A stretch of DNA of 43,532 bases from a virus, in the IMG/VR virus record IMGVR_UViG_3300045118_000536, positions 1-43,532 of that record; one strand, written 5' to 3'. Below, one piece after another: positions 29,743-29,871 of the stretch (positions are counted from its first letter, which is position 1; every line of letters begins with the position of its first letter). The translations under genes and the position numbers were made by a program. The notes under the pieces were generated by a model. That model was not told the DNA's origin and made no database searches. It saw only the letters and a program-made list of their open reading frames with translations.

Positions 29743-29871
29743 CTGGCGGCAAGTCGATAGTGCCTGTTTTCACCTTGCGGTGGCAGATGGAATCGAACCA
29801 TCAACAGTCTGGGATAAACCAGGCGCTCTTAACCATTGAGCTATGCGTGTAAGCATTATCAGTGCCGCCAG
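29743..29871 (-). ncRNA. structured RNA element 2, Y RNA-like with degenerate tRNA-like core
   Basis: P1 pairs 29863-29871 with 29743-29751 (CTGGCGGCA/TGCCGCCAG, 9 bp perfect). The CU/GACU internal loop is identical to element 1. P2 pairs 29853-29860 with 29756-29763 (GATAATGC/GCACTATC, one mismatch). Core: GCTTACACGC, D arm GCTC-AATGGTTAA-GAGC, an anticodon-like arm with only 4 bp and a six-base loop, T arm GATGG-TTCGATT-CCATC. Only three acceptor pairs can form, so it cannot be a normal tRNA. First element after the promoter. Confidence 0.75.

Follow-up and report, generated by a model that had tools for sequence, protein, structure and literature searches.

In vertebrate Y RNAs the terminal stem bears a bulged C in its 5′ strand and ACUU(G) in its 3′ strand, an arrangement that the elements described here seem to share; to our knowledge, vertebrate Y RNAs contain no tRNA-like core. 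Bacterial Y RNAs have so far mainly been one or two tRNA-like RNAs per Ro60. In Salmonella, the RNA repair operon rsr-yrlBA-rtcBA combines a Ro60 gene and tRNA-like Y RNAs with an RNA ligase nearby, and in Deinococcus radiodurans Rsr is tethered to PNPase by a Y RNA (PMC7790460). A Ro/TROVE protein, viewed as a platform for RNA repair, has been reported from a small subset of jumbo phages (PMC7824862). Here we describe a locus in the IMG/VR virus record IMGVR_UViG_3300045118_000536, the whole of which (43,532 bases, with genes for head closure, a DnaB-type helicase and a DNA sliding clamp) we call the window. Three tandem minus-strand elements, E2, E3 and E1 in that order, form an array that ends just before a gene for a predicted divergent Ro60. 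The best overall explanation, which we consider reasonably probable, is that they are Y-like RNAs of this Ro60, two of them built around a tRNA-like core that does not work as a tRNA, and that they perhaps belong to a set of mimics of translation RNAs.

Results

Architecture of element 2

From 29872 down to 29742, E2 consists of the outer helix strand CUGGCGGCA, a single C, the inner helix strand UGAUAAUGCUU, UACACGC and the tRNA-like core, followed by the hairpin CACC-GCAA-GGUG, the 3′ strand of the inner helix, ACU and UGCCGCCAG; overall, a long two-part bulged stem encloses the core (Table 1). The fold beats 200 of 200 dinucleotide shuffles (z −3.96). The structure that contains the tRNA-like arms has an energy of −47.8 kcal/mol, 2 kcal/mol above the computed minimum of −49.8 kcal/mol, and the long stem is common to both. 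At the bulge, ACU is invariant in the 12 phage relatives of alignment A4, and the ACUUG of E2 is also present in the Rfam YrlA consensus (RF02553).

The core keeps the shape of a tRNA and is no working tRNA. A first-pass annotation of this DNA had described canonical D and T arms, and both were recovered, as was its anticodon-like arm of 4 bp with a 6-nt loop (CUGG-UUUAUC-CCAG). The same annotation allowed only three acceptor pairs; consistent with this, the Rfam tRNA model aligns model positions 5-66 only (39.3 bits, E 6.1e-5 for the window). The proposal that E2 cannot function as a tRNA held up against a tRNA predictor, ARAGORN, which makes no call on it. The 19-nt insert, CTGATAATGCTTACACGCA, does lie between GGCGGCA (in 29863-29871) and the UAGCUC that opens the D arm on the minus strand. 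Left unmentioned by the annotation were the GCAA hairpin after the T arm, the bulged stem around the core, the third element at 29636-29735 and the strand.

Organization of the tandem array

Each RNA of the array follows one plan: outer helix, small internal loop, inner helix, UUACAYG motif and a variable module. With our structural descriptor the elements score 17.9 (E2), 18.4 (E3) and 18.6 (E1), against a best of 15.9 in 40 dinucleotide-shuffled strands. Spacers of 6 and 9 nt separate them, and the Ro60-like start codon follows ~26 nt after the end of E1, on the same strand. The internal loop of E1 and E2 places a 5′ C opposite a 3′ ACU, and both carry ACUUG on the 3′ strand next to this conserved loop of the terminal stem, where E3 has the variant AACUC.

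The modules differ. As judged by the Rfam tRNA model, D and T arms are present in E1 and E2 and not in E3, and the arm order of E1 and E2 is unpermuted: D arm, anticodon arm, T arm. The E3 module has two hairpins: one, at 29690-29706 with the loop CUUUGGA, resembles an anticodon arm, and the other is at 29663-29684. The former, CUUGA-CUUUGGA-UCAAG, is one base off the anticodon arm of a tRNA-Gln(UUG) in the relative locus L003. ARAGORN calls a tRNA-Ala(TGC) at 29529-29601 (minus), which is the core of E1 and no free-standing tRNA. Upstream of the array, TTTACA-N17-TATAAA at 29928-29900 (minus) was noticed by eye only, and a consensus promoter scan of the minus strand returned none.

Conservation, strand bias and covariation

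When the Ro60-like protein was used as a single query, neither the viral nor the genome collections returned a hit, and a profile of four sequences was required. With this profile we retrieved 40 viral loci, at identities of up to 57%. It also gave 144 hits in genomes, and we retained the 80 best. The genome loci are mostly cyanobacterial among these best 80 of 144, a taxonomic spread that is biased both by this selection and by the vWA sequence pattern that was required. Most relative loci bear Y-like elements on the strand of the Ro60 gene, often near tRNA genes. At a descriptor score of at least 15, the viral loci contain 42 elements on the gene strand, none on the opposite strand and 1 in shuffles; at a score of at least 12.5, at least one element is found in 75 of the 80 genome loci, with 214 on the gene strand and 10 opposite. 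Because the descriptor selects for pairing, we also chose elements by motif only and swapped their partner strands. In viruses, 33% of the true pairs reach a pairing score of at least 13, as compared with 1.3% of swapped pairs; of 22 on the opposite strand, none does. In genomes, whose stems are alike, the values are 98% for true and 47% for swapped pairs.

A covariance model (R1) was built from 12 aligned phage elements, window sequences excluded; the descriptor used to select the twelve is biased towards paired stems, and the D, anticodon and T arms lie outside it. The alignment has a covariation score of 0.623, against 0.208 for shuffles and 0.096-0.144 for slid partners, and the outer helix shows both-side changes at 9 of 9 pairs. 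In the window, R1 matches E1 (91.9 bits, E 7.3e-19) and E2 (68.7 bits, E 1.5e-13, positions 1-128) end to end. The window also contains an apparently real tRNA-Pro(TGG) at 15634-15712 (minus), in which CCA is not encoded; here R1 scores 34.2 bits and aligns the core only. Across 33 viral loci, R1 gives 103 matches at E ≤0.01, all on the Ro60 gene strand, a count that includes the 12 training sequences and, among the weaker matches, some real tRNAs. The GNRA hairpin of E2 recurs in 16 of 30 phage elements, where shuffled tails would give 0.4. Both the stem and the core show conservation and covariation among phages, and the RNAs of the array belong to a large, apparently undescribed family.

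The partner protein and its neighbourhood

In library searches, the product of 27997-29472 matched vWA models weakly and hit a PHROG family that carries the name RNA-binding protein. The Pfam TROVE model (PF05731) gave no match to it, and a phmmer search of the PDB with the single sequence was unsuccessful. A profile of 40 relatives, searched against the PDB, identified human Ro60 (E 2.1e-8), a phage TROVE protein (4.1e-8) and Rsr (0.0016). The AlphaFold2 (AF2) model of the protein has a predicted local distance difference test score (pLDDT) of 91.4 and matches Ro60 with a Z score of 20.2 over 437 residues, Rsr with 18.6 and the Ro60 of Thermus phage phiLo with 16.4; unrelated vWA proteins reach a Z score of at most 15, over ~160 residues. 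The two-domain fold is common to the model and the known structures (1yvp, 2nvo and 9l5y of phage phiLo) over 413-438 residues, at only 12-16% identity. Since the evidence from fold and profile outweighs the Pfam miss, we accept the homology: as judged from its predicted structure, the product is a divergent Ro60 that lies outside the family as Pfam models TROVE.

An RNA ligase gene (Pfam RNA_ligase, phrog_548) lies at 30300-31199 on the plus strand, divergent from the array. Downstream of the Ro60-like gene, at 25779-27182 (minus), is a gene for a BspA-type leucine-rich-repeat protein (Pfam LRR_5), an odd cargo for a phage. An HNH gene was rejected as a partner: 12 of 35 non-redundant viral loci have one near the Ro60 gene, and the window has none; the loci with an open reading frame resembling an HNH nuclease (HNH assigned by eye) near the Ro60-like gene are L017, L018, L019, L021, L022, L024, L027, L030, L031, L033, L050 and L051.

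Module types among the relatives

Classed by arm order, which is a rough and heuristic criterion, the viral modules comprise 17 unpermuted, 13 permuted, 6 anticodon arm only, 3 T arm only and 20 other; the genome modules comprise 106 unpermuted, 18 permuted, 10 anticodon arm only, 21 T arm only, 6 sarcin-ricin and 50 other. Of 125 unpermuted modules, 83 have an acceptor of 4 bp and 4 have one of 7 bp, and a truncated acceptor is the rule in the family. Where relatives have an anticodon arm, its loop is of 7 nt in 109 of 122 cases and of 6 nt in 4 of 122; by these counts the short loop of E2 is rare and its short acceptor is not. The anticodons vary, and some (ATT, AAA) are not normally used by bacteria.

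Permuted modules run T arm, acceptor 3′ strand, short loop, acceptor 5′ strand, D arm, and their acceptor ends are often sealed by tetraloops, for example UUCG or GCAA. ARAGORN recognizes 22 of 39 as tRNAs after un-permuting, none before and 0 of 195 with random rotation; it calls tRNAs in 38 of 279 family modules. One permuted core in a relative locus (L003:3207-3314) is YrlA-like, with E 7.4e-5 to RF02553, below the RF02553 threshold.

Other modules copy 23S rRNA. Matches to E. coli 23S at E <0.001 were obtained for 17 of 282 modules and for 0 after shuffling, and the copied regions are 1015-1119 (GTPase centre) or 1909-1941 (helices 69-71). For one such module, Rfam makes a large-subunit (LSU) rRNA call at 54.5 bits, above its threshold. 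The 12-nt sarcin-ricin sequence AGTACGAGAGGA occurs in 27 loci, with ~0.2 expected by chance. In every case it lies on the gene strand and immediately follows the Y-like 5′ strand with its UACA motif.

Individual loci provide further cases. A 595-kb phage (L001) has several Y-like elements, including a circularly permuted tRNA-Lys(UUU) in a Y-like stem with GCAA joining the acceptor ends (L001:372-523); near position 688, a sequence resembles the helices 69-71 module by eye. In a Kovacikia plasmid array, a Y-like element with an anticodon-arm-only module (L003:2554-2632, loop CUGUUAA) lies inside an apparent tRNA gene.

Table 1. Coordinates of the elements, their parts, the partner gene and rRNA-like modules of relatives (window positions unless a locus is named).
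Feature	Position	Strand	Basis or remark
Element 2 (E2), Y-like RNA with unpermuted tRNA-like core	29742-29872	minus	R1 covariance model, descriptor, fold
E2 outer helix, 5′ strand CTGGCGGCA	29863-29871	minus	fold; counterpart helix covaries in relatives
E2 inner helix, 5′ strand TGATAATGCTT	29851-29861	minus	fold, descriptor
E2 UUACACGC motif	29845-29852	minus	UACA part invariant in 12 aligned phage relatives
E2 tRNA-like core, with 3-bp acceptor remnant GCA/UGC	29783-29846	minus	Rfam tRNA match
E2 core, D arm	29825-29841	minus	canonical
E2 core, anticodon-like arm	29809-29822	minus	6-nt loop
E2 core, T arm	29786-29802	minus	canonical
E2 GNRA hairpin, 3′ of T arm	29771-29782	minus	4 bp; found in phage relatives
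E2 inner helix, 3′ strand AGGCACTATCG	29755-29765	minus	fold, descriptor
E2 ACU bulge (29752-29754) and outer helix, 3′ strand (29743-29751); ACUUG motif	29743-29754	minus	fold
Element 3 (E3), two-part stem and UUACAUGC motif as in E2	29636-29735	minus	descriptor; fold z −6.59
Element 1 (E1), Y-like RNA with E2-type stem	29499-29626	minus	R1; fold z −5.15
Predicted divergent Ro60 gene, 491 aa, TROVE-like helical repeat and vWA	27997-29472	minus	AF2 structure, profile, fold matches
Sarcin-ricin loop and L11-binding GTPase centre modules	L003:7199-7420, L004:2393-2600, L054:8565-8784, L055:10618-10832		23S match
Sarcin-ricin loop and L11-binding GTPase centre modules	L086:8720-8931, L089:7353-7558, L110:10643-10858, L112:866-1077		23S match
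Helices 69-71 (23S 1909-1941) modules	L078:137-333, L092:4673-4860, L115:3865-4061, L118:3965-4174, L088:5515, L095:4192		23S match

Discussion

A proposed rack of translation-RNA mimics

Because the relatives present tRNA elbows, anticodon arms, the sarcin-ricin loop with the GTPase centre, and helices 69-71, the set can be read as a rack of mimics of translation RNAs. Many of these structures, namely tRNA, the GTPase centre, the sarcin-ricin loop and helices 69-71, meet at the ribosomal A site, and they are sites cut by toxin nucleases. We envisage that Ro60 would hold each RNA by its bulged stem, as with Y RNAs, and that the module would face outward, where tRNA-recognising proteins could bind it. 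The set of mimics might then tie up, or act as a sensor for, enzymes directed at these sites (host ribonuclease effectors or toxins, for example), and translation would be protected during infection or translation stress. A role of the mimics as decoys or sensors is a tentative suggestion. Equally tentative is its broader form, in which phages and cyanobacteria would share a Ro60 ribonucleoprotein (RNP) with an interchangeable library of mimics acting as decoys or sensors against enzymes or drugs that attack tRNA or the ribosomal A site. We favour this role because the modules copy translation RNAs, and because of the A-site and toxin-site background given above. Published work is a further reason: the tRNA-like domain of YrlA may competitively inhibit an anticodon nuclease (Hughes et al. 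2020, PMC7790460), an Anabaena plasmid tRNA array is induced by antibiotics that target translation or the ribosome (PMC10272220), and the jumbo-phage survey bears on the same question (PMC7824862).

Several observations weigh against the overall explanation. For many of the modules, a decoy for one anticodon-specific nuclease is unlikely, because the anticodons vary and some are unused by bacteria. The window itself carries no rRNA mimic. An RNA ligase was not found within the ~6 kb flanks of other viral Ro60 genes, so a repair operon is not the conserved arrangement, and we rejected a conserved RNA-repair operon with an adjacent ligase. Lastly, the docking of a nuclease or a modification enzyme fits much of the same evidence.

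Alternative explanations

Such docking ranks close behind the decoy or sensor role and is a possibility that we hold with some doubt. Here the tRNA-like module would be an adaptor that brings a nuclease (e.g. PNPase) or a tRNA-modifying enzyme to Ro60, with the mimic as a handle rather than a decoy. The resulting RNP might, though again doubtfully, degrade or otherwise handle damaged or structured RNA. The Rsr-PNPase tether of D. radiodurans (PMC7790460) is a precedent, and in the unpermuted modules the D and T arms and the elbow stay constant as the anticodons drift, as expected for an enzyme that binds the elbow. Against this, a single locus holds many different modules, and those with the 23S sarcin-ricin loop and GTPase centre or helices 69-71 are hard to picture as handles for one enzyme. 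The first-pass annotation had likened E2 to the tRNA mimics of bacterial YrlA RNAs, whose tRNA-like modules recruit tRNA-modifying enzymes. By analogy, recruitment of this kind is possible for cores of the E2 type; the 23S rRNA mimics of the relatives do not obviously fit it.

The remaining part of that comparison, that E2 is of the YrlA type, stands in so far as an untranslatable tRNA mimic sits in a Y-RNA-like RNA beside a Ro60 relative, and fails on YrlA membership. A canonical YrlA RNA is an unlikely identity for these elements: a stem with a tRNA-like D/T core does adjoin a Ro60 relative, and ACUUG is placed as in the RF02553 consensus, but RF02553 fails to match the window even when its thresholds are relaxed, the permuted core of RF02553 contrasts with the unpermuted one of E1 and E2, and UUACAYG is not seen in the RF02553 consensus. 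On the Rfam model and core topology, we rejected YrlA membership of the window elements.

Still less credible are precursor tRNAs, whose stem would serve as leader and trailer, to be removed as usable tRNAs are processed. The ARAGORN calls of E1 as tRNA-Ala(TGC) and of a minority of family modules, and the position of the loci among real tRNA genes, speak for such precursors. However, the acceptor of E2 has just three pairs and its anticodon-like loop 6 nt, two-thirds of the unpermuted modules have 4-bp acceptors, permuted acceptors are often sealed by UUCG or GCAA tetraloops, and other modules are not tRNA at all; on the truncated and the sealed permuted acceptors, we rejected a working tRNA or pre-tRNA. 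Decayed tRNA genes with chance flanking repeats, which the degenerate look of E2 next to a normal tRNA might suggest, are the least plausible of all, being contradicted by the covarying conserved stems, the swap tests, the strand bias and the matches of one model across phages.

Implications

On the reading of the array as Y-like RNAs of a divergent Ro60, one such gene is accompanied by arrays of up to six detected RNAs with differing modules, in viruses and in cyanobacterial tRNA arrays, and the modules of relatives include copies of universally conserved ribosomal sites. Since each module names its presumed target, the purpose of Y RNA modules becomes directly testable. Not every tRNA gene annotated in a phage is a free-standing tRNA, as the tRNA-Ala within E1 shows, and similar cores elsewhere have probably been annotated as tRNAs.

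Comparison with known systems

A literature search, which reached few subscription journals, found no similar arrays or rRNA-mimic Y RNAs. The Salmonella rsr-yrlBA-rtcBA operon resembles the window in that tRNA-like Y RNAs accompany a Ro60 gene, with an RNA ligase nearby. It differs in that the window ligase is of the RNA_ligase/phrog_548 type, on the opposite strand and not conserved near relatives; no RtcB or RtcA was found among the proteins scanned. The Anabaena trn operon and other cyanobacterial plasmid tRNA arrays are a second point of comparison, as Ro60-like relatives sit in such arrays (L003); the published Anabaena plasmid array is described as tRNA genes only, with Ro60 or Y-like RNA unmentioned (PMC10272220).

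A further close likeness is to YrlA (RF02553), which is likewise linked to Ro60, has a tRNA-like D/T core on a long stem and carries ACUUG on the 3′ strand by the outer helix. In the YrlA consensus the core is circularly permuted, with the T arm first, the D arm last and the acceptor ends joined, whereas E1 and E2 retain the linear order of a tRNA. The window elements further differ from YrlA in their UUACAYG motif and their tandem array, and their relatives in having rRNA mimics and modules of anticodon arms only. The window elements are thus Y-RNA-like but not YrlA.
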